In this document: one piece after another, positions 6,942 to 60,066 of the stretch | How positions within the stretch are numbered: position 1 is the first letter of the stretch | How the letters are laid out: every line of letters begins with the position of its first letter | DNA from: Sphingobacteriaceae bacterium | GTDB lineage: Bacteria; Bacteroidota; Bacteroidia; B-17B0; Aurantibacillaceae | Reading direction: 5' to 3' | NCBI GenBank assembly: GCA_947480015.1 | Contig: CANKBS010000020.1 | Location: forward strand, 1-64,000 | DNA length: 64,000 nt | Translations under genes and position numbers: made by a program | Notes under the pieces: model-generated | Told to the model about the DNA's origin: nothing | Seen by the model: only the letters and a program-made list of their open reading frames with translations | Databases searched by the model: none

Positions 6942-6977
6942 ATTTATACGTTATTAAGAAAGAATTTTGGCATGGAT

Positions 6978-7008
6978 TTTGCCAGTATCTATTAAATAAA
7001 TATATTTG
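6978..7008 (+). promoter_or_regulatory. Bacteroidota-type promoter of the secreted unknown protein gene
   Basis: TTTG (6978-6981), 19 nt, TATATTTG (7001-7008); the ATG is at 7044. Confidence 0.78.
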
Positions 7009-7043
7009 AGAATCGAACACACGTATAATAAATTTAAAAACAC

Positions 7044-7643
7044 ATGAAAAATCTGTTTGCATTAGTACTCGTAGCATTTAGCTTAACGGTTAGCGCTCAA
7101 AAAAACAAAGCACCAAAAATGGCCCCAGTACTTGCTGAAGGTTACTATGTAGGAACCAAAGGAGATACTGTAAGAGGAATGGTACAAACCAATCCCGAAT
7201 TTGAAGTTGACATGTATAAACAATTTTCGTTTAAACCAGATAAAGGTGGAAAAGTAATGCCGGTTAATCCGAAACGTGCTACTGCTTATGGATACGACGG
7301 AAAACACTTTATTTTGTATAATTATGGCGGAGAAGATGTCTATATTGAAAGATTAACTTCAGGGCGCTTAAATTTTTTCGAATACCGATTAAATGGCAAA
7401 GTGGATGGTTACACTGCAGTGGTTTCTGAATACTTTGCTCAAGATAATAGAGCGGAAGGCGAAGATATTAAACTGAAAGAACTTACTAAAATTTCGAATA
7501 AGTTTTATAAAAAAGATTTAAAGCCTTTTATGAAAGATCAATTAATGATTTGGACTGATTTAGATAAATTTACTTTTGAAAAACAAACGGTGGTTAACGC
7601 CATCATTGAATTTAATAAGTACTACATCATTAGCGCAAACTAA
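7044..7643 (+). CDS. Secreted protein of unknown function
   Basis: 199 residues with a clean signal peptide MKNLFALVLVAFSLTVSAQ, so it should be periplasmic or outer-membrane associated. The mature part is hydrophilic and rich in Lys, with YYVGTKGDTVRGMVQTN near the start; no domain is recognised. It has its own promoter and a strong terminator and so is a single-gene unit between clpP and the GT39-type gene. Confidence 0.85.
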   Translation: MKNLFALVLVAFSLTVSAQKNKAPKMAPVLAEGYYVGTKGDTVRGMVQTNPEFEVDMYKQFSFKPDKGGKVMPVNPKRATAYGYDGKHFILYNYGGEDVYIERLTSGRLNFFEYRLNGKVDGYTAVVSEYFAQDNRAEGEDIKLKELTKISNKFYKKDLKPFMKDQLMIWTDLDKFTFEKQTVVNAIIEFNKYYIISAN

Positions 7644-7664
7644 ATTTGTCGTTTAATTTTTAGG

Positions 7665-7693
7665 CCGCTTCAGGATCTGGAGCGGTTTTTTTT
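7665..7693 (+). terminator. Rho-independent terminator
   Basis: Nine-base stem beginning CCGCTTCAG with a 3-nt loop, followed by eight T residues. Confidence 0.93.
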
Positions 7694-7765
7694 ATTTCCC
7701 TAAGGGATAAACTTTTTGACGATTGCTTTGCTTTTAATACTTTAGTTTCCGTAAAATAAAACCCT

Positions 7766-9322
7766 ATGCAATTTGAAAATACAGGACTCCTTTATACAGG
7801 AATTTTATTGGCTTTATTTAGCTTTGTAATTCACCTGACAGGTAAAGATAAATTAGCCATACTTTTTTTGTTCTGTTCGGCTTTATTTGTGCGATTGTAT
7901 ATTGTTCATCTGGATCATTTTTTGCATGACTGGGATGAACGTTTTCATGCTCTGGTAGCAAGAAACATGATGGATCACCCATTTAAGCCTATGTTGTATT
8001 CACAGACTATACTTCCCTATGAGTTTATGTCGTGGACTGAGAACCACATTTGGCTGCACAAACAACCTTTGTTTATGTGGCAAATGGCATTAAGTATGAA
8101 AATTTTCGGCGTGTCGGAATTTGCTATGCGTTACCCGAGTGCTTTAATGGGAGCCATCATGGTAATAGTTGTGTATCGTATAAGTTGGTTATTAAGCAAA
8201 GACCGTCTATTATCCTATGGCGCTGCTTTGTTAATGTGTTTTTCGAATTACCAGTTAGAACTTATGTCAGGTTATATAGGCATGGATCAGAATGATGTTG
8301 CCTTTGGCTTTTATGTTTGCGCTAGCATTTGGGCTTATATAGAATTGCTAAACGATAAGCGCTGGTTTTGGATTCTACTAGTAGGCGTATTTGCCGGATG
8401 TGCTGTTTTAAATAAATGGCTTACTGGTTTACTAGTATTTGGTGGCTGGGGATTAAATATCCTACTGGCAATTAGAAAACCTGAATCGAAAAAGGAAATC
8501 TTTCGGATGCTAATGTCGTTTGGCATTTGTTTACTTGTGTTCGTTCCTTGGCAGATCTACATTCTGAATCAATTCCCACTGGAAGCAAAAAACGAATTTG
8601 CTTACAATTCAAAACATGTATTTGAAGCTGTAGAAAATCATGCGGGCTCTACTATGTTCTATTATCAAAAATTACCTCAGTATTTTGGTTTATTCACCTG
8701 GCAACTTTTTCTGATTGGCATAGCGGTATTTGCTGCTGCTAAAACTGAGGACTGGCGAATTAAGCTGAGTTTGGGTTTTAGTGTTTTAATTATTTTTCTT
8801 TTCTTTTCATTAGTAGTAAAAACAAAAATGCAGTCTTATTTTTTTGTGGTAGGTCCAATTGGATATATTTTTATGGCTTATGCCTTGGTTAGGGGCATTC
8901 AGTTTTTTAAACTTCCAGGCTATTGGCCAAAACTCGTTAGTGGCAGTGGATTGATAATTTGCGCCTGGTTTTTATTTAATTATAGCGGAATAAAAACATT
9001 CTTTCACGATCCAAATGATCCCGACAGAATAACAAAAATAAAAAACACTGCCATTTATAAAGACCTTAAAAAACAACTTAAACCAAATACCAGATGTGTT
9101 CTTAACCTTAGTCAGTTTTCGGAAACAGAGCTGATGTTCTACAATCCGAATCTGGTGGCCTATCACGGTAATCTCAACAAAGAAAGTATAGAAAGACTGT
9201 TGAAAGATAATTTACCAATAGCGGTATTTAAAAATCACGACAGATATAAGGATGCCGATTACCTTCCTACTTCACCATTATTTTATTTAATTGATGAGGA
9301 ATTAGGGGAAGCCAACAAATAG
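7766..9322 (+). CDS. Membrane glycosyltransferase, GT39/ArnT (PMT) superfamily
   Basis: 518 residues with about 10-12 hydrophobic segments. Between the first helices lies the loop HDWDERFHALVARN, matching the acidic (DE) motif of ArnT/PMT-type GT-C enzymes, followed by KQPLFMWQMALSMKIFGVSEFAMRYPS. Such enzymes use polyprenyl-phosphate sugars at the outer face of the inner membrane to modify lipid A, arabinan or protein. The C-terminal 100 residues form a soluble domain. Convergent with tcdA. The acceptor is unknown. Confidence 0.86.
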   Translation: MQFENTGLLYTGILLALFSFVIHLTGKDKLAILFLFCSALFVRLYIVHLDHFLHDWDERFHALVARNMMDHPFKPMLYSQTILPYEFMSWTENHIWLHKQPLFMWQMALSMKIFGVSEFAMRYPSALMGAIMVIVVYRISWLLSKDRLLSYGAALLMCFSNYQLELMSGYIGMDQNDVAFGFYVCASIWAYIELLNDKRWFWILLVGVFAGCAVLNKWLTGLLVFGGWGLNILLAIRKPESKKEIFRMLMSFGICLLVFVPWQIYILNQFPLEAKNEFAYNSKHVFEAVENHAGSTMFYYQKLPQYFGLFTWQLFLIGIAVFAAAKTEDWRIKLSLGFSVLIIFLFFSLVVKTKMQSYFFVVGPIGYIFMAYALVRGIQFFKLPGYWPKLVSGSGLIICAWFLFNYSGIKTFFHDPNDPDRITKIKNTAIYKDLKKQLKPNTRCVLNLSQFSETELMFYNPNLVAYHGNLNKESIERLLKDNLPIAVFKNHDRYKDADYLPTSPLFYLIDEELGEANK

Positions 9323-16910: not shown

Positions 16911-16918
16911 TATATTTG
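16911..16918 (+). promoter_or_regulatory. -7 element just before the lipoprotein gene
   Basis: TATATTTG matches TAnnTTTG only 6 bases before the ATG at 16925. A matching -33 TTTG is not obvious. If used, the message would begin at or very near the ATG. Confidence 0.4.
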
Positions 16919-16924
16919 TAACAC

Positions 16925-18508
16925 ATGGTATTCTTTAAAAAAATTTGGCTGCTTGGCCCTGTACTACTCTTACTTTTGGGCTGCAGAAAATCAACCAATG
17001 CCAACTGGGATGTGGATGTGGTGCTACCGGTAGTTAATTCGGTTTTGGATATCAAAAATTTTGTGGGGGATAGTTTATTTAAAACGGATAAAAACGGTTT
17101 GATGACCCTAAGCATTCACCGACAGATTGCCTATATAAAACTCGATTCCTTATTGAATTTGCCTGATACAACTTTTATTAGCAAGTTTACCAATACTGTT
17201 TTTCCGATTGGACTTCAACCTGGAGACAGCTTTACAAACGCCCCCATCACCGAACTCAGTTTTAATGTTGGAACCGGTATTGAATTGAAGCGGGTAGATA
17301 TCAGGCAAGGATTATTACACATAAAATTTAGTAATGATCTTTCTCAGCCACTTGATATTCGCTATGTAATTGCAAACGCCACTAAATATGGACCCTTAGT
17401 CATTACAGAAACCATTCCGCCCGGACAAAATTCACTTGTTAAGGAATATGACCTTTCGGGATATAGTTTAAACATGCAAGGTATTTCGGGCAATAAATTT
17501 AATACCATATCTCAGGCTTATACATTGGCCTTAAATCCGGCTGCCACTTCTTCTGTTACTATATTCATTGGGCAGGGTGCCGCCCTTGAATTGGGTTATT
17601 CTGAAATAATACCACAATATGCCGAAGGGTATTTTGGAAATCAAAGCGTTAATCTTGCCTTGGATACGGCCAGAGTGGGTTTGGTTAAAAACTTCAAAGC
17701 TTCTAATTTTTTATTGAGCGATGCCACCATGAATTTCTCCATCATTAATGAGTTTGGCGCTGAATTCAGGGGTAATCTCACCAATGTAAAATCCATAAAT
17801 ACGCCAGATAATAAACTCATACAACTTAATAACAGTCATCTATCCAGCATTAATATAAATCCGGCCAGTAAAAATGGATCGGTGATTAGTTCTTCTACAA
17901 CTGTACTTTCTTTTAATACTGCTAATAGCAATATCACTTCCTTTATTTCAAATTTACCCGATAAACTCACCTATCAAGGTCAAATTGATTTGAATCCGAA
18001 TCAAAATCATAGGGGATGGAGTGATTTTGCCTTTTACAATACCGGTATTAAAATTCTGGCCGACATTAATATTCCTTTAAGGTATACTGCCAATTATTTT
18101 AGATTAAACACCAATTCTGTGACCGATTTTTCAAGTGTGTCGCAATTAGATAAAGTGAATTACGGACGCTTTGTGATTTTTGCCACAAACGGATTTCCTT
18201 TTAATGCCAGCTTACAAGCTTATATGTATAACGATCAAAACCTAGTGATTGATTCGCTTCTTACCTTTGATGCCAACACCATTATGGCCGGAGCTGTGGA
18301 TTATTACAATGTGGTGCAAACACCAACGGCTTCCAAATTAATTATTTCAATGGATAAAGCTAAAATTGAGAACCTAAAAAAATGCAAGTCCATTAAAGTA
18401 GTATCCAACTTTATTATGCCGGTTAATCCGCCCGAAATTAAGATTTTAGATTCGTACCAAATAAGTGTGAACATAGTAGCTGAAGTAAATTATAATGTTG
18501 GTTTGTAA
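16925..18508 (+). CDS. Large lipoprotein of unknown function, first gene of an envelope operon
   Basis: 527 residues. The lipoprotein signal LLGPVLLLLLGCRKS has Cys in a good lipobox, so it should be lipid-anchored. The mature part is Ser/Thr/Asn-rich and predicted all-beta, with several INxxPLRYxxNYF-like strands; no domain is recognised. Nine bases separate it from the barrel-like gene downstream, and the whole group to 23828 runs on the same strand, so they are probably one transcript. It may be the lipoprotein partner of the outer-membrane protein. Confidence 0.82.
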   Translation: MVFFKKIWLLGPVLLLLLGCRKSTNANWDVDVVLPVVNSVLDIKNFVGDSLFKTDKNGLMTLSIHRQIAYIKLDSLLNLPDTTFISKFTNTVFPIGLQPGDSFTNAPITELSFNVGTGIELKRVDIRQGLLHIKFSNDLSQPLDIRYVIANATKYGPLVITETIPPGQNSLVKEYDLSGYSLNMQGISGNKFNTISQAYTLALNPAATSSVTIFIGQGAALELGYSEIIPQYAEGYFGNQSVNLALDTARVGLVKNFKASNFLLSDATMNFSIINEFGAEFRGNLTNVKSINTPDNKLIQLNNSHLSSININPASKNGSVISSSTTVLSFNTANSNITSFISNLPDKLTYQGQIDLNPNQNHRGWSDFAFYNTGIKILADINIPLRYTANYFRLNTNSVTDFSSVSQLDKVNYGRFVIFATNGFPFNASLQAYMYNDQNLVIDSLLTFDANTIMAGAVDYYNVVQTPTASKLIISMDKAKIENLKKCKSIKVVSNFIMPVNPPEIKILDSYQISVNIVAEVNYNVGL

Positions 18509-18517
18509 GAGAAGTTT

Positions 18518-19795
18518 ATGAGAACCCAAAAAAAACAAAAAATAGTATTTTATTTTAGGCTCAACATGTTGTTTGTCCTTTTGATGTTTTTGAGTAAAAC
18601 CTTAAACGCCCAATACAATACCAATTTTCTAAATTATAGTTCAATGGGTCGCAGTGTGTCGGCCAATCTCGATTTTGAGGCAGGCAGCAATGGCATGAGC
18701 ACACCCTTGGTAAACAAACTGTTTTGGGGTGGCTATATTAGTAAGGATGTAAAAGATCAATCGGCCAAGCATTTAAAAGCCAGTAATAATTTCGGCTTGC
18801 TACTTGACTACGATGTAAACGCTTTTGTAAAAGGCAATTATAAATTTGATTATTTAATAGGTGTAAAAAGTCAGGATGTACTAAATGCCACCTACACCCG
18901 AGATTTTTATAATTTGCTTTTTTATGGAAACGGCGCCTACAAAGGGAAAACAGCCAATATTGGCAATTCCAGTGTAAATGCCCTTCGTTTTAATCAAGTA
19001 ACGTTTGGTGCCGTTTTACACAAGGTGGATTCGGTTGGTAAAATCGGCATTTCTGTTTCGCTTATTCAGGGGCAACAATTGTTTGATGTGAAAACTAACG
19101 CTAATTCCAGTTTGTACACTTCACCCGATGGCACGGAACTTATTTTTAATTCTAATTTTAATATGGCGCTGAGCGACACCACGCGTAAAAACCCCTTAAG
19201 CTTTAATGGCATAGGGGCCAGTGCCGATATCTTTTTTGAAACGCCATACAAAAGCCGTATTGGGAAGCGCAGTGTATTAATTGTAAACGCTAACAATTTG
19301 GGTTTTATACATTGGCAAAATAATTCGGTGCAATATAGCAGCGATTCGAGTTTGCGTTATACGGGTTATAATATTCATAGTATAAATGATCTGCGCGATT
19401 CTACCATTAATCGTTTAAAAAGCGATAGTTTGGTTCAGAATCTTTCTAATGCCCGTCACCAGTCTTTTAACGTAAACATACCAACCAATTTAGTAATTTT
19501 AAATAAGGTTTATTTTTCGGAAATATTTAGTTTGACTTTAGGTTTCAGACATATTTTTAATGCCAATTATGTGCCCTATGTGTTTTTGGAACCGGAGTAC
19601 AAATACAAAAATTTTATTTTTGGATTGCATACCGGATACGGGGGTTATGTGAGGTTAAACGTGGGTGCTAACATTACTTGGAACAGCAAAGCCTGGTTTT
19701 TACGCTTGGGAAGTAATAGTTTACAAGGTTATTTTTTTCCTAACATCACTTATGGACAAGGATTGTATTTAAGCTTAGCAAAAAAAATAAAATGA
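18518..19795 (+). CDS. Outer-membrane-like beta protein (possibly DUF5723)
   Basis: 425 residues. The signal region MLFVLLMFLSKTLNAQ is preceded by about 17 extra basic residues; an internal ATG at 18566 would give a more usual signal peptide. The body has alternating aromatic beta strands and GxGAN-type turns, like PorV/FadL or DUF5723 barrels, and ends LYLSLAKKIK rather than in an aromatic residue. The DUF5723 label is from memory of the family and tentative. It overlaps the next gene by ATGA. Confidence 0.68.
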   Translation: MRTQKKQKIVFYFRLNMLFVLLMFLSKTLNAQYNTNFLNYSSMGRSVSANLDFEAGSNGMSTPLVNKLFWGGYISKDVKDQSAKHLKASNNFGLLLDYDVNAFVKGNYKFDYLIGVKSQDVLNATYTRDFYNLLFYGNGAYKGKTANIGNSSVNALRFNQVTFGAVLHKVDSVGKIGISVSLIQGQQLFDVKTNANSSLYTSPDGTELIFNSNFNMALSDTTRKNPLSFNGIGASADIFFETPYKSRIGKRSVLIVNANNLGFIHWQNNSVQYSSDSSLRYTGYNIHSINDLRDSTINRLKSDSLVQNLSNARHQSFNVNIPTNLVILNKVYFSEIFSLTLGFRHIFNANYVPYVFLEPEYKYKNFIFGLHTGYGGYVRLNVGANITWNSKAWFLRLGSNSLQGYFFPNITYGQGLYLSLAKKIK

Positions 19796-21276
19796 GAAAA
19801 CAACTTATTTACATTCTGGCTTTGCTGAGTTTATTGGTATCAGCGCAGCCCCCCGATAAATTTTATACCAAATTTGGAGGCTCAGGAATTGATATCGGCT
19901 ATGGTGTAAAAGAAACGTTTGATCGCCAATATGTGGTGATTGGTTCTACCAGCAGTTATGGGGCAGGAGGGATGGATGCCTTTATGTTGTTGGTTGACAG
20001 CATGGGGCAACTCAAATGGCAAAAAACCTTTGGTGGCATAGGCACCGATGAAGGAAAAAGTATTTTAGTGAACCCTGCAGATAGTGGTTTTGTGTTTGCA
20101 GGTTATACAAACTCTTTTGGTTTTGGGGGGTATGATGTATATGTGGTGCGAACGGATAAAAACGGCAACATTATTTGGGAAAAAAGTTTTGGTGGTTTTG
20201 ACTGGGATTTTGGAAATGATTTGGTTTTTGCGGCGGATGGGAATTTGGTAGTTTGTGGCTCTTCCTATAGCAGTACTTATGGCAAAAATGACGGCTATTT
20301 AATAAAAATTAATACGAATTCAGGCAATTTAATTTGGCAAAAAAATTATGGCGGCATAGAGGATGATGAATTTAAAGCGGTTGTTAGAAGAACGGGATCT
20401 GATTTTTATCTTGCTGGTAACTCAAAAAGTTTTGGAGACCTAAACGGCGATATGTTAATGTATAAAATTGGTGCAAACGGAGATTCCCTTACATCTATTG
20501 TTTATGGAGGGTCTAAATATGATGGGGCTAATGATGTTATTGTTTTTGACAATAAGGACATAATTTTAGCGGGTGGAAGTAATAGTTTTACGAATGGAAA
20601 GCGGGATGTTTTTGTGATAAAATTCGATTCTTTAAGCAATGTGATTTGGAAAAAGAATTATGGCCAAAGTGGGGATGATGAGGAATGTTATAAAATAGTT
20701 TTTTCTTTGAGCAGCCTTCTCAACGAAGTAGTATTAATTTATACAACTCAAGAGTCAGGAGCATTTACAAAAAAGGACATCAAAACTATTTACCTAAATA
20801 TTTTTGGGGATTATTTTGGAGGGTACAATAGTGGTAAATTCGGATCCTATGGTGATGATGAAGCATTTGATATAGCCCCTGCAAAAAACAAAGGCTATGT
20901 TCAGGTTGGTTATACTACTGGGTATAATGCCCAAAATAAAGATTTGTTTATAGTTAGACAAGATTCTTTACTTGCCGAAGGAACATTTTCTGTTGTTGGT
21001 ATAAATGAAAATATTTCAAAAGAAGATCAAGTCTCAATTTATCCTAATCCATTTACTTCTCATTTTAATATTGATATTACGGAAATTGAATCTAATTCTT
21101 CTATTCAAATTACTATTTATGATGTTTTTGGGAATCTTCTACTTTCCGAAAAACAGATTATTGTTCGTCAATCAAATATGCTGAAAGTTTCAACAATGGG
21201 ATGGAATTCTGGTGTTTATTCATTGTGTATAAAATCGGACATTAAAACATATCACTCAACAATAATTAAGCAATAA
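19792..21276 (+). CDS. T9SS type A cargo with beta-propeller-like repeats
   Basis: 494 residues, start overlapping the previous stop by four bases. Signal peptide MRKQLIYILALLSLLVSAQ. The body holds about seven repeats of roughly 55 residues of the type IWxKxFGGxxxDxGxxxxxxxDxxxVxxGxS (for example WQKTFGGIGTDEGKSI and WEKSFGGFDWDFGNDL), a layout typical of secreted propeller proteins. A T9SS domain (SIYPNPFTSHFNIDI, SGVYSLCIK) closes it. Base use in the last 600 bases is more AT-rich than in the operon around it. Confidence 0.88.
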   Translation: MRKQLIYILALLSLLVSAQPPDKFYTKFGGSGIDIGYGVKETFDRQYVVIGSTSSYGAGGMDAFMLLVDSMGQLKWQKTFGGIGTDEGKSILVNPADSGFVFAGYTNSFGFGGYDVYVVRTDKNGNIIWEKSFGGFDWDFGNDLVFAADGNLVVCGSSYSSTYGKNDGYLIKINTNSGNLIWQKNYGGIEDDEFKAVVRRTGSDFYLAGNSKSFGDLNGDMLMYKIGANGDSLTSIVYGGSKYDGANDVIVFDNKDIILAGGSNSFTNGKRDVFVIKFDSLSNVIWKKNYGQSGDDEECYKIVFSLSSLLNEVVLIYTTQESGAFTKKDIKTIYLNIFGDYFGGYNSGKFGSYGDDEAFDIAPAKNKGYVQVGYTTGYNAQNKDLFIVRQDSLLAEGTFSVVGINENISKEDQVSIYPNPFTSHFNIDITEIESNSSIQITIYDVFGNLLLSEKQIIVRQSNMLKVSTMGWNSGVYSLCIKSDIKTYHSTIIKQ

Positions 21277-21320
21277 AATAAAATAATTATCTATATTTAT
21301 TCCTTAAGAAGTTTTAGTAA

Positions 21321-23828
21321 ATGAATATTAAAAAGTTTTTTATTCTCCTACTCATCTTTTCTTACATAGGCTCCTCAGCGCAGGTTATGAATGTAAGAAA
21401 GTGGCGTAAAACCGAGCGTGATTCGCTTGATTATGGTATGATTTTGTATGAAGAAAAATCATTTTTACAGGCCTTGCCGCTTTTTGAAAAGATTCTCAAC
21501 AACCACTCCGATGAGGAGTTTCTTAAATTTACCTATGCCAAGTGTGCACTTAATCGTTCAGACAAGCATGCCGATGCCTATAAGTATTTGACCGAGGTGT
21601 ATGAAAAAAATAAAAAATTGCCCGACATGCAGTACGACATGGCCTTGGCAGCGCATTATAATTATAAATTTGAAGAGGCTGAAAATTATATCAATCAATA
21701 CGAAGCAAAAAAATTAAGTCCGGAAGCAAAGTTAAAGGCCGATCAATTAAAGCGTTATATTGCAAATGCCAAGGTTTTTTATGCCAATCCCACTGCAGCT
21801 AAAATTAGCAATTTGGGCGATTCCATCAATACGGCCGATGATGAGTATGTGCCGGCCATTACTGCCGATGAGTCCTTGATGTATTTTACCTACGCTGGTT
21901 CTAAAAGTTTGGGTGGGCGACAAAATGCCACTTTACAGGCCGATTCCGGTGGTACATTTATGGAAGATATTTACATGGCGCATCAGCATAACAATAAATT
22001 TCGCAAAGCCATTTCACTCGATAGTTTAAATACCAATGCGCCAGATGCTGCCATTTCGGTGAGCAACGACGGTCGGGTTCTTTTTATTTATCAGGATATT
22101 GGCGATGGTCACGGTGATATTTATAAAAGTGATTTGATTGGTGAGCATTTTTCAAAACCAAAAAAATTACGCGGCGAAATTAATTCATATTCTTGGGATG
22201 GCCACTGCTCCTTGTCTCCCGATGGGCAAACCCTTTATTTCAGTAGCGAACGTATTGATGGCTTAGGTGGTCGCGATATTTACCGCGCCAGTTTGTCGGC
22301 CGATTCGAGTTGGACCCATGTGGTTAATTTGGGTGATTCGGTGAATACGCCATACGATGATGATGCCCCATTTATTAGTGCTGATGGCTTAACCCTGTTT
22401 TTCAGTTCAAAAGGACGCAGCAGCATGGGCGGTTATGATGTTTTTAGAACGGTGATGAATCCGGTAGATTCAAGCTTTAAAAAGTCAGATAACTTAGGAT
22501 ATCCGATTAATTCAACAGCCGACGATATTTATTTTGTAATGGCTGCTAATGGGATTAATGGGTATTACAGTTCGGGTAAAAAAGAAGGCAAGGGTATGAA
22601 AGATATTTACAAGGTTGAACCCAATTTTACTTGGGAAAAACCTGCTTTGTATTTAGTAAAAGGGACTATAAAAAACCTGGAAGGCCCTGTAACTGCTAAG
22701 ATAAAGGTGGAGGTTTTATCTAATAATAATAAGATATACAACACCTTTAGTGCCAATTCAAAAACGGGAGCTTATTTGTTGAGTCTGCCCGGTGGTGCAA
22801 CTTACCGCTTAACATACAGTTATAAAAATCTTAAACCCGAGGTGCTCGACATGGATGCAAGTGCCATAAAAGGTTATCATGAGAAAACAGAAAATATAGT
22901 ATTATCTGTAGCGCCGGAGCCGGTATTGGCAGCGGTTACAGCAATAGCAGCAAATGTAACAGCCACAGTAAATCAGGTAGCAGTTAAAACAAACACAAGT
23001 ACATTAGCCTTAGTCGCAAAAACGACAGCTTCTGAAACAACGCGTATTGCAAAGGTAGAGCCAAAACAAGTTGAAAAAGAACTGAAGGCGGCAGAACCGT
23101 TAGCCAAAGTGGAAGCTGTAAAAACAGAAACAAAAACGGCCGTAATTGCGGAAGTACCAGTTGCAAAAGTAGAGCCTGTAAAAACAGAAACAAAAGCGGC
23201 AGTAGTTGAGGAAGTTGCAGTGGCGAAAGTAGAACCAGTAAAAACTGAAATAAAAACACCTGAGCCGGAAAAAGCAAAAGTAGTTAAAACAGAACCGGTG
23301 AAAGAAACGCTTGCAGTAACTGAAAAACCTGTGTTTAAGCCTGAAGAGGCCAAGCCATTGGCAGAAGCCAAAGTAAGGAAAAGCAAAGAGAAAAATCCAT
23401 TGGCGGCAGCCTGGGATTTTACAGCACAGCCTGTGAGTTCTACTCCATTAAAATTACCGAAGGTGGCGGCTAGTAAAGATGGCTTCACCCCAATTAATGG
23501 TCCACAAGTTAAAACACAAAAATTCGCCGAAAAATACGGTAATGTTGCTGATCAGGATGTGGTGTATTGGGTGCAAGTGGCTGCAATTAAAACCGATAAA
23601 CCGATTGAATTAGCGCATTCTAAAAAATTGGGCAAGGTTGAAAAAATTGATCTGTCGGATGGTTATATACGCGTTACCGTTGGTGGTACCTTTAAAACGC
23701 TGGGTGCAGCTTATAAACATACCAAAAAGGTTGTAAAAGCCGGTCAGAAAGACAGTTTTGTGATTGCCTTGTATAAAGGCAGGCGAGTAAGCTTTGAGGA
23801 ACTTGAAGAGATGGGTTTACTAAAATAG
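21321..23828 (+). CDS. TPR - PD40 propeller - SPOR-like periplasmic protein (paralogue A)
   Basis: 835 residues. Order: signal peptide (FFILLLIFSYIGSSAQ), TPR helices about 30-150, WD40-like PD40 strands about 165-430 (LYFSSERIDGLGGRDIYRA and LFFSSKGRSSMGGYDVF), a carboxypeptidase-regulatory-like beta domain about 450-530, a Lys/Glu/Val/Pro linker with EPVKTETK-type repeats about 555-690, and a C-terminal SPOR-like domain about 745-820 (VYWVQVAAIKTDKP). PorE, a T9SS-linked protein, has a similar front but ends in OmpA. SPOR domains bind denuded peptidoglycan. Its paralogue is at 50812-53088. A terminator follows. Confidence 0.85.
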   Translation: MNIKKFFILLLIFSYIGSSAQVMNVRKWRKTERDSLDYGMILYEEKSFLQALPLFEKILNNHSDEEFLKFTYAKCALNRSDKHADAYKYLTEVYEKNKKLPDMQYDMALAAHYNYKFEEAENYINQYEAKKLSPEAKLKADQLKRYIANAKVFYANPTAAKISNLGDSINTADDEYVPAITADESLMYFTYAGSKSLGGRQNATLQADSGGTFMEDIYMAHQHNNKFRKAISLDSLNTNAPDAAISVSNDGRVLFIYQDIGDGHGDIYKSDLIGEHFSKPKKLRGEINSYSWDGHCSLSPDGQTLYFSSERIDGLGGRDIYRASLSADSSWTHVVNLGDSVNTPYDDDAPFISADGLTLFFSSKGRSSMGGYDVFRTVMNPVDSSFKKSDNLGYPINSTADDIYFVMAANGINGYYSSGKKEGKGMKDIYKVEPNFTWEKPALYLVKGTIKNLEGPVTAKIKVEVLSNNNKIYNTFSANSKTGAYLLSLPGGATYRLTYSYKNLKPEVLDMDASAIKGYHEKTENIVLSVAPEPVLAAVTAIAANVTATVNQVAVKTNTSTLALVAKTTASETTRIAKVEPKQVEKELKAAEPLAKVEAVKTETKTAVIAEVPVAKVEPVKTETKAAVVEEVAVAKVEPVKTEIKTPEPEKAKVVKTEPVKETLAVTEKPVFKPEEAKPLAEAKVRKSKEKNPLAAAWDFTAQPVSSTPLKLPKVAASKDGFTPINGPQVKTQKFAEKYGNVADQDVVYWVQVAAIKTDKPIELAHSKKLGKVEKIDLSDGYIRVTVGGTFKTLGAAYKHTKKVVKAGQKDSFVIALYKGRRVSFEELEEMGLLK

Positions 23829-24013: not shown

Positions 24014-24114
24014 CTTATTAGTGTTTGTTAGGATTTCTTTTCACACAAAACGCGGAAATCCTTACAAACACTTATATCGCAGAATTGCAGTTTAATTCTG
24101 TTAAGGGTTAAATA
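24014..24114 (-). repeat. Two-hairpin intergenic element, copy A
   Basis: An 18-base inverted repeat with one mismatch (AGTGTTTGTTAGGATTTC at 24020-24037 against 24055-24072) is followed by a second hairpin CAGAATT / AATTCTG (24080-24100). Read on the minus strand it aligns over about 95 bases with 59969-60066. A separate small hairpin CATGCG/CGCATG lies at 23992-24008. The rest of the gap from 23893 to 24159 shows nothing else. Confidence 0.75.
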
Positions 24115-47287: not shown

Positions 47288-50275
47288 TTACTCCACAATT
47301 AGTTTGCCTGAACCAATACTTATACCATCGCCCAGAACCGTATAAAAATAAAGAGCGCTCTCAAGTGAGGTTTTGATATCATTGACGCCGGCTTTTAATT
47401 TTTCCTTTTGAACTATGCGGCCTTGCGTATTTGTAAGTATGAGTTCAATTTGATTATAACCTACTGGACAAATTACGCGGAATTTATTGCTGCAAGGATT
47501 CGGGTAAAGTTCAACAGCTTGATTTAGATTATTTTCTTTCAAACCGGTACAAGCATTCACAATTAATTGCAGGCTCACTGTTTTTGTACAGTTATTAGAT
47601 CCCGTTCCTGTTAGGCTATAAGTTTTACTGATGGTATCCAATACTATTATGGAAGGTGTTGCTTCTCCTGTATTCCATAAATAGGCCGAAGCTCCTGTAG
47701 CCTCAAGTGTCGCAGATTCTCCGGCACAAATGGCACCCGGAATTATATTGGTAGTGATGTTCGGTGCGGGTTTTACAATAATTGAACGCACGCTGGGCAC
47801 TACACTTTTGCAACCTGTTATCGTATCGGTTCCATAAACCGAATAGGTGCTCGTAGCGCTTGGTGTAAATGGAACACTGTTTAAAACGCCTCCGGTCCAG
47901 GTGTATGTATTGGCACCACTTCCGTTGAGAGTAACCGAACTACCTTCACAAATGTTTGAAGCCGATGCATTGGTATTTATTATCGGCAAACTGTTAACCG
48001 TTATACTTGCAATGGCCAGTGTTGGCGAAATACATCCGTTTAATCCTTTAGCTGCAACGGAATAGGCCGTATTTACAAGAGGTGAGATAACCGGGCCACC
48101 GTTCATGTAGGTATAGGTCGCCGCTCCTGTTGGATTTATAGTATAAGAAAAACCTATACACACCGCACCGCTGTTAATGTTAATAAAAGGTACCGGTTTC
48201 ACTGTAACACTATGTATAGCTGTTGTCGCACATGTACCACTGAAACCGGTGACGGTATACGTAATATTGGTGAATGGATTTCCGGATAATGTATTTGTTT
48301 GCATTCCTGTATTCCAGCTGTAGGTAGAAGCCCCGCCTGCTATTAAATTCAAGGGATCTCCCGCACAGGTTACATTGCTGCCGTTTATACTTACCGAAAG
48401 GTTATTTGCCACCGTAATCGTTACAGTTGCAGGAGCGCCTAAGCAACCTGCTGTAGAGGTTCCGCTAACAGTATATACACTGGTGCTTGTTGGCGAAGTA
48501 ATAGAGCTTCCACTTGAATAGGTATAAGTTGCAGCCCCAGATGGATTAAATGTAAAGGAGTTGCCAGTACAAATTCCCCCGCCGTAAACAACAATCTGCG
48601 GTAGTGGGTTAACCGTTATGGTAATGGCTGTTCTGCTGGCACTGGGACCGCAGGTAATGCCTTCAGCGTAAAATGTTGTGGTTGTGGTAAGTGTAGGAGT
48701 GAGAAATGTAAATCCCGAACTTAAATTGCTAGTGCTTGTTGGACTTGAAAACCACTGCATGCTGCCAGTAGTTGAATTTACGGTAAGTGTGCTGCCATTG
48801 CCACTACAAATTAGTTGATTGGCTGGAAGGCTTATGTTTGTGGGTGTTGGAGGTGTATAACACACATCGTAGCGCCAAAAGTCATTTAAAAGTCCGGAAG
48901 CTCCAGCCGAACGGCCAATACCTCCAAATAACCAAAGCCTTCCGTTTAAATCTGTCCAGCTCATATATTCCTGGCGACTTCCGGGCATATTATTAGGCGC
49001 CGCTATGCCTTGGGTGCCATAAACACCAAGCTGGTCAAACAGATTACTTCCCTTCATTAAGGTCCATTGGTTGTTGCTGACGTTATATTTCCACAAATCA
49101 CTCATGTAATTACTAAAAGACGAGGCAGAGCCATAGCCTCTTCCTGCAAACAACCAAAAATTTCCCGCCGCATCCGTCCATCCTTTATGCATATCTCTGC
49201 CTCCAGGTTGGGCCGTGCCAGTTGCAACGCCTATTGGACTATAGTTTGCAAGTTGATTAGGCAAACCCGACCCCTTCATCCAGGTCCAGTTATTTGTTGT
49301 TGGATCGAATTTCCAAAGATCGCTCATTAAACCGGTTGAAGTCGTGCTGTTGCCTTGACCCCATCCACCATAAAACCAGAAGTTCCCCGCCGCATCTTTA
49401 AAAGAACAAGCGTCTTGATGTCCACCGGGTGTGTTGCTGCTTGAAGGAAAACCTTGCGATCCAAATACACCCATGGCATTGGTTGGTTGGTTGCTGCCTT
49501 TCATCCAGGTAAATTGATTGGTAGCGGTGTTATATTTCCAAAGATCATTCATCACACCACCTCCAAATTGTGAAGAACCTACAGTCATACCACTAAACAT
49601 CCAAAGGCTTCCCGTTGCATCACTCCAACCCACTGCCTGCAGTCTTTGTCCCGACAAATTAGAAGAATTAGCAACACCTAGTGTTCCGTATACGGCATAC
49701 TGATTGGCTGAAGTGCCAATACAGCCGCTATAGAAGGTCCATTGATTGGTGGTAATGTTATATTTCCATAAATCGTTCAAGTAATTCGTTCCACCAAGTG
49801 TAGTGGTACCATAATAGCCCATGCCTCCATACAACCATAAATTTCCAGAAGGGTCTACCCAGGTTAAAGCGTTTTTTTTACCGCCAGGCCTGTTTCCCGG
49901 TGCAGCTATGCCCGGTGTTCCGTATGCGGATGGCTGATTAACAAGGGGCGAGCCTTGCATAAAGGTCCATTCGTTTGTTGTTGGATTATAACGCCACAAA
50001 TCATTTAAATAATTATAACCCGATATAAACTGGCCGTAACCTTCACCACCAAATAGCCATAAATTACCGTTTAGGTCTGTCCAAGTAGCTCCCGAACGAC
50101 GGGCACCGGGCGTATTGGCAGTTGAAGGTAAACCCTGAGTGCCGTAAATACCCAAGGCGTTAGGAGTCGTCGTTCCCGTTACCCAGGTAAAATTCTGAGA
50201 GGAAGCAGTTTCTGATATCAAAAAAAGAAAAATGTAAAATGCAAATAGGACTTGGGTTTTGAAAAGTGCTTTCAT
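47288..50275 (-). CDS. Kelch-repeat T9SS type A surface protein with Ig-like domains
   Basis: 995 residues. Signal peptide (ALFKTQVLFAFYIFLFLI...), then six Kelch-type repeats of about 65 residues marked by NDLWRYNPTTNEWTFMQGS, YLNDLWKYNITTNQWTFYSG and similar words (about 40-470). Next come six or more Ig/PKD-like units of about 75-80 residues with CxGxS/T and AxTYTW/S patterns (about 480-900), and a T9SS domain (VELYPNPCSNKFRV). It should be a surface-exposed binding or scaffold protein. Confidence 0.9.
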   Translation of the reverse strand: MKALFKTQVLFAFYIFLFLISETASSQNFTWVTGTTTPNALGIYGTQGLPSTANTPGARRSGATWTDLNGNLWLFGGEGYGQFISGYNYLNDLWRYNPTTNEWTFMQGSPLVNQPSAYGTPGIAAPGNRPGGKKNALTWVDPSGNLWLYGGMGYYGTTTLGGTNYLNDLWKYNITTNQWTFYSGCIGTSANQYAVYGTLGVANSSNLSGQRLQAVGWSDATGSLWMFSGMTVGSSQFGGGVMNDLWKYNTATNQFTWMKGSNQPTNAMGVFGSQGFPSSSNTPGGHQDACSFKDAAGNFWFYGGWGQGNSTTSTGLMSDLWKFDPTTNNWTWMKGSGLPNQLANYSPIGVATGTAQPGGRDMHKGWTDAAGNFWLFAGRGYGSASSFSNYMSDLWKYNVSNNQWTLMKGSNLFDQLGVYGTQGIAAPNNMPGSRQEYMSWTDLNGRLWLFGGIGRSAGASGLLNDFWRYDVCYTPPTPTNISLPANQLICSGNGSTLTVNSTTGSMQWFSSPTSTSNLSSGFTFLTPTLTTTTTFYAEGITCGPSASRTAITITVNPLPQIVVYGGGICTGNSFTFNPSGAATYTYSSGSSITSPTSTSVYTVSGTSTAGCLGAPATVTITVANNLSVSINGSNVTCAGDPLNLIAGGASTYSWNTGMQTNTLSGNPFTNITYTVTGFSGTCATTAIHSVTVKPVPFININSGAVCIGFSYTINPTGAATYTYMNGGPVISPLVNTAYSVAAKGLNGCISPTLAIASITVNSLPIINTNASASNICEGSSVTLNGSGANTYTWTGGVLNSVPFTPSATSTYSVYGTDTITGCKSVVPSVRSIIVKPAPNITTNIIPGAICAGESATLEATGASAYLWNTGEATPSIIVLDTISKTYSLTGTGSNNCTKTVSLQLIVNACTGLKENNLNQAVELYPNPCSNKFRVICPVGYNQIELILTNTQGRIVQKEKLKAGVNDIKTSLESALYFYTVLGDGISIGSGKLIVE

Positions 50276-50360
50276 ATTGAAAAATTTGCCGTAAAGATAA
50301 GCTTTTTTTGCATATCCTTTTTTGCCTGAGGTCTCCGTTTATGGATTGCAGGAGGCGTAA

Positions 50361-50600
50361 CTAAACACTAAACACTAACAACTAGCTAGAGGTAAAGTTT
50401 AGTATGGTTATGAAGTCTTTGAGGTGGCCAAATGCGGTCATGTATTTTTAATCCACATGAGACATTCTCCTTCTGAAAGCTATCAACCGAAGGATTATAC
50501 CCTTTGAACCCTTTGAACCCTTTGAATGTCCCCTGAGCAAGTTTATGCTGAGTTTGGCCGATAACTATCGTACGAAGGATGGTTAAAAAAATAGGCGTCT
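50361..50600. repeat. Mixed intergenic repeats before the second TPR/PD40 gene
   Basis: Contains CTAAACACTAAACACTA (50361-50380), TTTGAACCCTTTGAACCC (50505-50525) and CCCTGAGCAAGTTTATGCTGAG (50531-50552). Between 50600 and 50750 lie words such as TGTGGCCATTGTGGTTAAAG. These are pieces of the composite repeats seen at 12.3 and 46.9 kb. Nothing coding is seen in 50276-50811. Confidence 0.8.
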
Positions 50601-50757
50601 AGCTCCGTGACCTTTGTGCCAAACATTGTGGCCATTGTGGTTAAAGCAAACCATGAAACTATTTCGCTTGCGAACATGGCAGGGTGCGCCTGTTGAATGT
50701 GAACCCCTTGAACCACTATGGTTTTTTCTAAGTAAAAAGCATTAAAAACTAATAAAA

Positions 50758-50789
50758 AAAACCCTCCAAACCGAAGTCAAGAGGGTTTA
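50758..50789 (-). terminator. Terminator of the minus-strand TPR/PD40/SPOR gene
   Basis: On the minus strand AAACCCTC (50781-50788 reversed) pairs with GAGGGTTT (50759-50766 reversed), followed by TTTTT. Confidence 0.85.
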
Positions 50790-50811
50790 TATGATATAAC
50801 AAAGCTTCTTA

Positions 50812-53088
50812 TTAATTGATTGGCTGTGCCGAGAAATCAATCATGATTAAATCTTCTAAGGTATAACGTTTACCATCTACAAACGCTACAATCCATGAAT
50901 CGGCGGTACCTTTGCTTATCGCTTTCTGACGGTGTTTTTCAGCGTCTTTTAACGTAGTAAATTGTTTTTGAGTGAAACGAGTAATGCCATCCGGGTAACT
51001 TTCCGATTCTAATTTACCTAAAGATTGTAATTGCGCACCTTTAAAATTAGCCGGGTTTCTGTATGCACCCACCTGTACTTTAAATACCAAATTACCCGAA
51101 CAATAATTTCCGGCCAATTCCATTAACTGTTTGTACACTGCCGCATCGTTTAACGATTTACCTTTAACCCCACTTAAATCAGGCAGGGTAGGTTCACAAG
51201 GTGCATTTTTCGCTACCACTTCTTTTTCTTCCTTCACCACTATTTCTTTTACAGGAGCTTTAGTTTTTTCCTTCTTTGGTTCTACAACCGCTATAGGCTC
51301 TTCTTTAACAACTTCCATAACAGGTTCTACTTTTACCACTTCTTTCACAGGTTCTACTTTTGCCACCTCTTTCACCGGTTCTTCTTTTACAACAACAGGC
51401 TCCGGAACCACCGGTTTCACCACTTCTTTAGGCTTTACCTTCATAACCGTAACCACCGATTTTTTTGGATTTGGATTAGTGGCTAAATACACAGGCGTAT
51501 ATAAATAAAAGTCTTTGCTCTGCTCCATATACGAAGCTAAAGTCTCAATATCCACATCTTCTTCTACCGGATCAAATCCATCGGCAATAACTTTAATTCG
51601 GTAAACATTACCCGGACTAAGTGCCATTAAATATTTTCCGGTTTTATTATTACTGGTAAATGGACCAATGTTTTCTTTCTTAGCGGTTTTAATCACTTCA
51701 ATTTTCGCTCCAATTGGTTTTTCATCACCATATACGGTTCCTTTAATGAGGGCTACAATTGGCTTCTCACCTAAGATACCCGGGGTAACCATATAAATAT
51801 CTTGTTGACCAAAAGCACCTGCGCCATTTCGGTCACTACTAAAATACCCTTTATCCCCTTTCGAATTAATTACATAATACGAATCATCTTCTGTGGTATT
51901 CAAAGGAATACCCATGCTTTTTGGAGCGGTCCAGCCATTGTCTTCTTTAATAGAGAACATGATATCATATCCCCCAATACTTTGATGCCCTTTTGAACTG
52001 AAGAATAAGGTAATCCCATCGGGGTGAATAAAAGGCGCATCATCATCATAAGGTGTGTTAATGTTTGGTCCCAGGTTAACAGCCGGCCCCCAATCACCAT
52101 CTATATTTTCACTCACCCAAATATCCCTACCTCCTAAACCTTCAGGCCGTTCAGAAGCGAAGTATAAATATTTTCCATCAGCAGAAATGGAACAAGAACC
52201 TTCCCAATAATCAATGGTATTAATATTAGCATTTAAAGCTATTGGTGTTGAATAGTCATTGCCTACTAACTTACTCACCATAATATCACCCGGATTATTA
52301 TTATTACTTAAAAAGGTAAACAAGGTTTGACCACTTGGTGAAATAGCAATGGCAGCATCGTTACCGCTAGTATTTAAATTTTTCATCGGTACCGGTTTAT
52401 TCCATGTGGTGCCTGATGTATCGCGGGTACTGATAAATATATCCGATAAAAACACCCCGTTAACAGGGTCAGATTGAAGGGCGGTGTTTAATTTACCCCC
52501 CATACTTTTACTTCCAATGTAGGTGTATATCAATTCCGACTCATCGGCCGTTATAATAGGTACCCCTTCTAATTCATTGGTGTTTACAGGAGATCCGATA
52601 TTAGTAATCTCAGCATAAATTTTATTCTGCATCAGGTATTTCCCGTTCTCACAATTCTTAATGGTTAAGGCCACCTCATCCAGTAAAAACTTATCTTCTT
52701 TTTTGGTGCTTTTTGATAAAATCTCAACCAAAGGTGTTAAAGTCGCAATGCCCTCATCAAATTTATAGTTTCGGTGAAAGGCTTTCCCTAAATAGACTTC
52801 TACTTCTAGGGTTTTGTAGCGCTGTTTCATATCCTTAAAGATCTCGATGGCACGGTCTTTCTTATCCGCGTAATTTAAACAGCAGATCCCCAATTTAAAT
52901 TGGTAATCGATCTCTTTTGGATAACGTGAATGTAATTTGTCGAAAATTTCATAAGCCTTCACATATTGGTGTGAATTTAAAGCGTCATAACCCTGATCTT
53001 CCATAGTACTACGCGATTGGGCCTTTGAGAGACCTGCCATAAGTATAAATACAAATGCAACGAGGTAATAAGTGTTAAATTTGACCAT
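50812..53088 (-). CDS. TPR - PD40 propeller - SPOR-like periplasmic protein (paralogue B)
   Basis: 758 residues with the same order as paralogue A at 21321: signal peptide (LVAFVFILMAGLSKAQ), TPR-like helices (30-150), PD40 strands (YLYFASERPEGLGGRDIWVS, LFFSSKGHQSIGGYDIMF) to about 430, a regulatory beta domain, a KVEPVKEVVKVEPV repeat linker (570-640), and a C-terminal SPOR-like domain (FKVQVGAYRNPANFKG). Single gene with its own terminator. Peptidoglycan contact by the SPOR domain and outer-surface-independent periplasmic location are inferred. Confidence 0.86.
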   Translation of the reverse strand: MVKFNTYYLVAFVFILMAGLSKAQSRSTMEDQGYDALNSHQYVKAYEIFDKLHSRYPKEIDYQFKLGICCLNYADKKDRAIEIFKDMKQRYKTLEVEVYLGKAFHRNYKFDEGIATLTPLVEILSKSTKKEDKFLLDEVALTIKNCENGKYLMQNKIYAEITNIGSPVNTNELEGVPIITADESELIYTYIGSKSMGGKLNTALQSDPVNGVFLSDIFISTRDTSGTTWNKPVPMKNLNTSGNDAAIAISPSGQTLFTFLSNNNNPGDIMVSKLVGNDYSTPIALNANINTIDYWEGSCSISADGKYLYFASERPEGLGGRDIWVSENIDGDWGPAVNLGPNINTPYDDDAPFIHPDGITLFFSSKGHQSIGGYDIMFSIKEDNGWTAPKSMGIPLNTTEDDSYYVINSKGDKGYFSSDRNGAGAFGQQDIYMVTPGILGEKPIVALIKGTVYGDEKPIGAKIEVIKTAKKENIGPFTSNNKTGKYLMALSPGNVYRIKVIADGFDPVEEDVDIETLASYMEQSKDFYLYTPVYLATNPNPKKSVVTVMKVKPKEVVKPVVPEPVVVKEEPVKEVAKVEPVKEVVKVEPVMEVVKEEPIAVVEPKKEKTKAPVKEIVVKEEKEVVAKNAPCEPTLPDLSGVKGKSLNDAAVYKQLMELAGNYCSGNLVFKVQVGAYRNPANFKGAQLQSLGKLESESYPDGITRFTQKQFTTLKDAEKHRQKAISKGTADSWIVAFVDGKRYTLEDLIMIDFSAQPIN

Positions 53089-59968: not shown

Positions 59969-60066
59969 TAAATTTAACCCTAATCAGAATTGAATAATTC
60001 AATTCTGCGATTAGTGTTTGCAAGAATTTCATTGTTTTGTCGCAAAGAAATCCTCACAAGCAGTAA
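59969..60066 (+). repeat. Two-hairpin intergenic element, copy B
   Basis: Starts TTTAACCCTAATCAGAATTG and holds a perfect hairpin CAGAATTGAA-TAA-TTCAATTCTG (59985-60007), then the AGTGTTTGCAAGAATTTC / GAAATCCTCACAAGCAGT inverted repeat. The last base is next to the recG ATG. It aligns with the minus strand of 24014-24114. Confidence 0.75.

Follow-up and report, generated by a model that had tools for sequence, protein, structure and literature searches.

A lipoprotein and DUF5723-type barrel gene pair of Bacteroidota, with linked genes for a T9SS cargo and a SPOR-like protein, as a candidate surface-display unit

The surface of Bacteroidota is defined by complexes of outer-membrane barrels and lipoproteins (Sus, BAM, T9SS), and the type A cargo of the T9SS normally uses PorV. 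PorP, a barrel of P. gingivalis, interacts both with the T9SS cargo PG1035 and with the peptidoglycan-binding PorE in a demonstrated complex of wall, barrel and cargo (PMC9143113), and five operons of F. johnsoniae assemble genes for PorE-like, SprF-like and type B cargo proteins (PMC12618676). Besides, the barrel BamG of the Bacteroidota BAM complex carries a lipoprotein, BamH (PMC12611786, PMC12578637).

The locus presented here lies in a 64-kb window, i.e. the whole stretch of DNA that was analysed, from a genome of 3.77 Mb in 66 contigs. It consists of four open reading frames, P1 to P4, that follow one another on the same strand with intergenic gaps of 9 (P1-P2), -4 (P2-P3) and 44 bases (P3-P4), an arrangement that the initial annotation had described and that was confirmed, coordinates included (Table 1). 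With the PorE-PorP-PG1035 complex and the SprF/PorE-like/type B operons, it shares the bringing together of a T9SS cargo, a barrel, which in those units is of the FadL type with 14 strands and may be so here, and a TPR/PD40 protein that probably binds peptidoglycan, and, within the genus, cargo, barrel and PorE-like genes stand side by side as in those units. However, the barrel probably belongs here with DUF5723 instead of PorP/SprF, the P3 tail is of type A (TIGR04183, PF18962) and not of type B, and there is an additional lipoprotein, P1, which is the most conserved partner.

The four genes are likely to be read as one transcript, as suggested by three signals in the DNA: the TATATTTG box is the sole TANNTTTG found 5' of P1 by the pattern scan, the same scan returned no TANNTTTG box in the junctions between the four genes, and a stem-loop with a U-run follows P4 (-10.9 kcal/mol, z -2.5, 3 of 200 shuffles being equally stable). 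The box preceding P1 is weak by itself, 42 boxes of the TANNTTTG type being present on the + strand of the 64 kb. Since the ortholog alignments of P2 mostly start at residue 13-20, the true start of this protein may be the Met at 18566, which would bring the P1-P2 gap to 57 bases.

Table 1. Positions of the four genes and of their flanking transcription signals in the window.
Feature	Coordinates	Strand	Length	Basis
Bacteroidota-type -7 promoter box, TATATTTG	16911..16918	+		pattern scan; 6 bases 5' of the P1 start codon
P1, lipoprotein, multi-domain all-beta	16925..18508	+	527 aa	ortholog alignment, AF2 model, Foldseek
P2, predicted outer-membrane beta-barrel, divergent DUF5723 member, FadL/BamG-like fold	18518..19795	+	425 aa	Pfam matches of aligned members, model, Foldseek
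P3, predicted T9SS type A cargo, delta-60-like propeller and C-terminal sorting domain	19792..21276	+	494 aa	Pfam, NCBIfam
P4, predicted periplasmic protein, TPR - PD40 propeller - low-complexity linker - SPOR-like C-terminus	21321..23828	+	835 aa	Pfam, profile-profile comparison
Terminator-like stem-loop with U-run, 3' of P4	23854..23891	+		folding energy compared with shuffles

The conservation of the gene order was followed in 60 relatives and 40 neighbourhoods, the named ones among the relatives being uncultured Bacteroidota/Bacteroidia metagenome bins, and in a phylum sample of 118 genomes. P2 directly follows P1 in 33 of the 35 genus genomes that possess P1 and in 16 of the 19 other P1-bearing genomes of the class. 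In the phylum sample, a P1 match was obtained for only 46 of the 118 genomes, and a DUF5723 gene lies directly 3' of it in 41 of the 45 P1-bearing genomes other than the source. The P3 of the locus is the genome's best match and sits beside P2 in 28/35 genus genomes; among other families, the genome-best P3 match adjoins P2 in 8 of 17 (p ~1e-19 under random placement), the paralogous group of P3 being large, with up to 44 matches per genome. A linkage by chance, which had been proposed as the conclusion to draw if the homologues were usually not neighbours in related genomes, is thereby rejected, clearly so for P1-P2 and for P3. As for P4, it is located 3' of the unit in 22/35 genus genomes (manual count). 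It directly adjoins P3 in no more than about 7 of 21 loci, glycosyltransferase or opposite-strand genes lying between the two elsewhere. Its membership in a phylum-wide unit was rejected, this linkage being restricted to the genus. The linkage is therefore layered, with an ancient P1-P2 core to which P3 was added in the class Bacteroidia and P4 in the genus. The idea of a dedicated surface-assembly unit put forward in the initial annotation thus keeps its plausibility, a close published parallel being available, but not in the form of a fixed four-gene system, as the core is P1-P2 and P4 is confined to the genus. In many members of the genus, although not in the window, a membrane glycosyltransferase of the PMT_2 type (protein O-mannosyltransferase-like) is encoded between P3 and P4, e.g. 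at 6962-8386 of locus L065.

In most of the phylum, P1-P2 comes without P3 or P4, and the gene after it is mostly on the opposite strand, so that the pair mostly stands alone. This would be expected if P1-P2 were a FadL-like transporter of a hydrophobic molecule or lipid, with P1 as its binding or lid subunit and with P3 and P4 as unrelated passengers. The FadL-type fold match of P2 points in the same direction, as do the neighbouring genes in some genomes: kdsA (KDO-8-phosphate synthase, LPS core) lies directly 3' of P1-P2, and is usually followed by P3, in several families of the class (L048, L050, L053, L054, L060, L220), and lptF/G-type genes adjoin the pair in L225. Nevertheless, the FadL NPA motif was seen on inspection to be lost in P2 of the genus, and the linkage of P3 across families lies far above chance, which makes a transporter with passengers somewhat unlikely.

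Regarding the second gene, its description as barrel-like is borne out by an AlphaFold model that forms a confident beta-barrel (pLDDT 84.2). A Pfam search with the window P2 gave no match at E<=1, DUF5723 (PF18990) included, while 28 of the 33 aligned P2 members do match PF18990, with a best E of 2.1e-79; P2 is accordingly, judging by its aligned relatives, probably a divergent DUF5723 protein. Neither a PorV match nor a PorP_SprF-type match was found in Pfam or NCBIfam. The parallel with PorV-type barrels drawn in the initial annotation thus does not extend to the identity of P2, which is without NCBIfam match and groups with DUF5723, and an identity with PorP/SprF was rejected on the basis of the DUF5723 matches of the aligned members.

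In Foldseek, the best PDB fold match of P2 is 9n2d_B, which is BamG in the BAM complex of F. johnsoniae (E 2.5e-6, TM 0.38-0.41), and further matches are TodX, TbuX and FadL (E ~1e-6, prob 1.00, TM only 0.38-0.45). This resemblance, together with the fact that P1-P2 and BamG-BamH both combine a lipoprotein with a barrel, FadL-like in BamG and possibly so in P2, and that B. thetaiotaomicron encodes a BamG2-BamH2 in an operon (PMC12578637), would fit a pair acting as an outer-membrane assembly factor, either as a functional counterpart or as a paralogue of BamG-BamH, that would attach to BamA and assist the folding of particular surface proteins such as P3. However, the P2 profile found no match among PDB chains at E<=10, BamG and FadL included, P2 has no match to Toluene_X (PF03349) in Pfam, and its comparison with the Toluene_X protein of the same genome by hhalign reached a probability of only 0.5. 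An orthology of P2 with BamG was consequently rejected at the sequence level, there being no PDB chain match by profile. In addition, P1 and P2 are an adjacent gene pair of patchy distribution (46/118 genomes for P1), whereas BamG and BamH are reported to be conserved in the phylum. Taken together, with no sequence match to any BAM chain and P2 outside Toluene_X, a role in assembly appears improbable. In the search for the genome's own BamG, its sole Toluene_X protein had no PDB match by phmmer.

The first gene encodes, as initially annotated, a lipoprotein: its lipobox reads LLLGC, and the lipid-anchored Cys20 is invariant in 33 orthologs from many families. Trp28, about 8 residues further, is invariant as well, suggesting that the fold begins very near the lipid anchor. 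While P1 is without any family in a Pfam search, the structure prediction recommended for the first two proteins yielded for P1 an all-beta AF2 model of several domains (pLDDT 85.7), the top Foldseek match of which is PDB 4h3w (E 1.6e-9, prob 1.0). The latter is BDI_1231 of Parabacteroides distasonis, a putative secreted protein of about 330 residues, compared to 527 for P1. It is also the best PDB match of the P1 sequence profile, over its C-terminal residues 239-322, at a weak E of 0.26 among 177,635 PDB sequences. P1 falls into a lipoprotein family that is related to 4h3w and has not been named.

In the same line, the gene preceding DUF5723 in genomes of family f27, where no P1 match was found, codes for a short lipoprotein of 178-191 aa. 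The profile of these proteins has 4h3w as its sole PDB match at E<=1, in the C-terminal part (217-322, E 0.11, 177,635 sequences) that overlaps the region matched by P1, so that 4h3w is the best, though weak, sequence match of two independent profiles of partner lipoproteins. By hhalign, P1 and the f27 lipoproteins are joined only over 48 N-terminal columns, signal peptide included (prob 89). It is likely, from these profile matches, that the two are homologous.

On which leaflet P1 resides bears on the function of the pair. Acidic residues after the Cys are the mark of surface lipoproteins, according to a published rule (PMC12578637) that calls for at least 2 of them among the first six residues (LES rule). 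The window P1 has 0/6 and, devoid of this export signal, may face the periplasm. Among 34 P1 sequences with a script-called lipobox, a few of these calls being wrong, at least 2 acidic residues occur in 11 and none in 14. The absence of the signal in P1 of the genus is consistent with a structural staple, in which an inner-leaflet P1 and P4 would link P2 to the wall, and PorV would deal with P3 as with other type A cargo; the SPOR-like end of P4 and the DUF5723-OmpA fusions described below accord with it too. Conversely, in 6 of 8 short lipoproteins of f27, at least 2 of the six residues that follow the Cys were seen on inspection to be acidic, as expected for surface lipoproteins, and P4 is missing from the unit outside the genus. 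A staple is the least probable of the readings considered.

The fusions in question are proteins in which TSP3 repeats and an OmpA domain come after a DUF5723-type barrel. One is encoded in the source genome (L177:1384-3837, contig C21) and others were found in L173 and L184. In L173, L177 and L180, an adjoining gene resembles those of peptide-chain-release factors. The occurrence of such fusions in the source genome and in others is a parallel to P2 with P4 and makes a tie between barrel and wall credible.

The third gene had been annotated as a T9SS propeller, which agrees with a sorting domain at residues 416-491 (PF18962, E 2.2e-11; TIGR04183, 38 bits for a cut-off of 23) and with weak delta-60/DUF5122 matches of the propeller repeats. 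P3 is, on these domain matches, classed as a type A cargo of the T9SS. The tail is kept in 19 of the 24 aligned P3 members, three of the remainder being cut by contig ends. In close orthologs (L065, L066, L074, L075, L082), the YPNP start of the tail is degenerate. The SprA translocon was detected in the source genome, and none of the 45 other P1-bearing genomes lacks SprA. A dedication of the pair to the T9SS was not retained from this co-occurrence, which proves little because the SprA-negative genomes are mostly of one family (f36).

For the fourth gene, the annotated TPR and PD40 repeats were recovered (Pfam, E 2.2e-17), while SPOR (PF05036, residues ~749-815) stayed below the threshold in Pfam (E 0.13; 16.9 bits in the genome search) but was supported by an hhalign comparison with SPOR domains encoded elsewhere in the genome (prob 92.8). 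The signal MNIKKFFILLLIFSYIGSSAQ is, on inspection, of the Sec type without lipobox Cys. The parallel with PorE-type proteins holds as far as TPR and PD40 are concerned. Nevertheless, P4 scores 161 bits against the PorE model NF052230 of NCBIfam (cut-off 600) and 189 bits against the CHU_0125 model (cut-off 620), it has no OmpA domain match, the SPOR-like end standing in its place, and it carries no lipid anchor, so that its membership in PorE was rejected.

The P1-P2 pair would work like the known barrel-lipoprotein and barrel-PorE units, yet is a member of none of the tested families. The reading favoured here, with a probability of roughly 0.4, is that of a wall-tied display, in which a complex of P1 and P2 presents the cargo P3 while P4 attaches it to peptidoglycan. 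More precisely, P1 would hug the membrane, docked on the FadL-like barrel P2, and the two quite probably form an outer-membrane complex, the ancient core. P3 would be received or held at the surface by this core, a coupling that would have arisen in the class Bacteroidia. Through its SPOR-like, presumably peptidoglycan-binding end, P4 would contact P2 and tie the barrel to the wall, so that P3 would be displayed at a fixed site, as an addition of the genus. The layout parallel to PorP-PorE-cargo, the constancy of P1, which accompanies the barrel more regularly than any other partner, much like BamH with BamG, the lipoprotein before DUF5723 in f27, the BamG and FadL-type fold matches of P2, the linkage of P3 to P2 across families, the DUF5723-OmpA fusions and the presence of SprA all argue for wall-tied display. 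Against it stand the low TM scores of the FadL-type matches (0.38-0.45), the lack of a profile link between P2 and BamG or FadL, the P1 of the genus without acidic signal, the type A tail of P3 when type A normally uses PorV, the rarity of P4 beside P3, and the fact that the pair usually occurs without P3 and P4.

A further barrel-lipoprotein pair, phylum-wide and without functional annotation, would represent a direct and testable addition to the surface complexes of Bacteroidota. It would reveal whether barrels of the FadL type serve surface lipoproteins and T9SS cargo as a general platform, and whether type A cargo can be anchored to the wall as type B is. In the open-access literature, no paper was found on the P1-P2 pair, DUF5723 or BDI_1231, subscription papers lying outside the search. 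A broader proposal, which is regarded as doubtful, would be that the lipoprotein and the DUF5723 barrel make up an outer-membrane machine of the whole phylum that has not been described before and differs from BAM, from Sus and from PorV/PorP. This machine would have been joined with T9SS cargo as well as with anchors in peptidoglycan (P4 in trans, OmpA in the fused paralogues) and would display surface proteins at wall-fixed sites.

Finally, a few other elements of the window may be mentioned. An inverted repeat of 22 nt, 91% complementary and with a loop of 17 nt, occupies 24016-24076 in the spacer that separates P4 from the CTP synthase gene; similar copies of it at 60001-60066 and in contig C1 (80% and 75% identity) suggest a small repeated hairpin element. 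On the minus strand, 50812-53088 encodes a second PorE-like PD40 protein, adjoined by a Kelch/Ig_7 protein (47288-50275, minus strand) whose T9SS tail is weak; 47288-53088 is possibly another pair of cargo and PorE-like protein.
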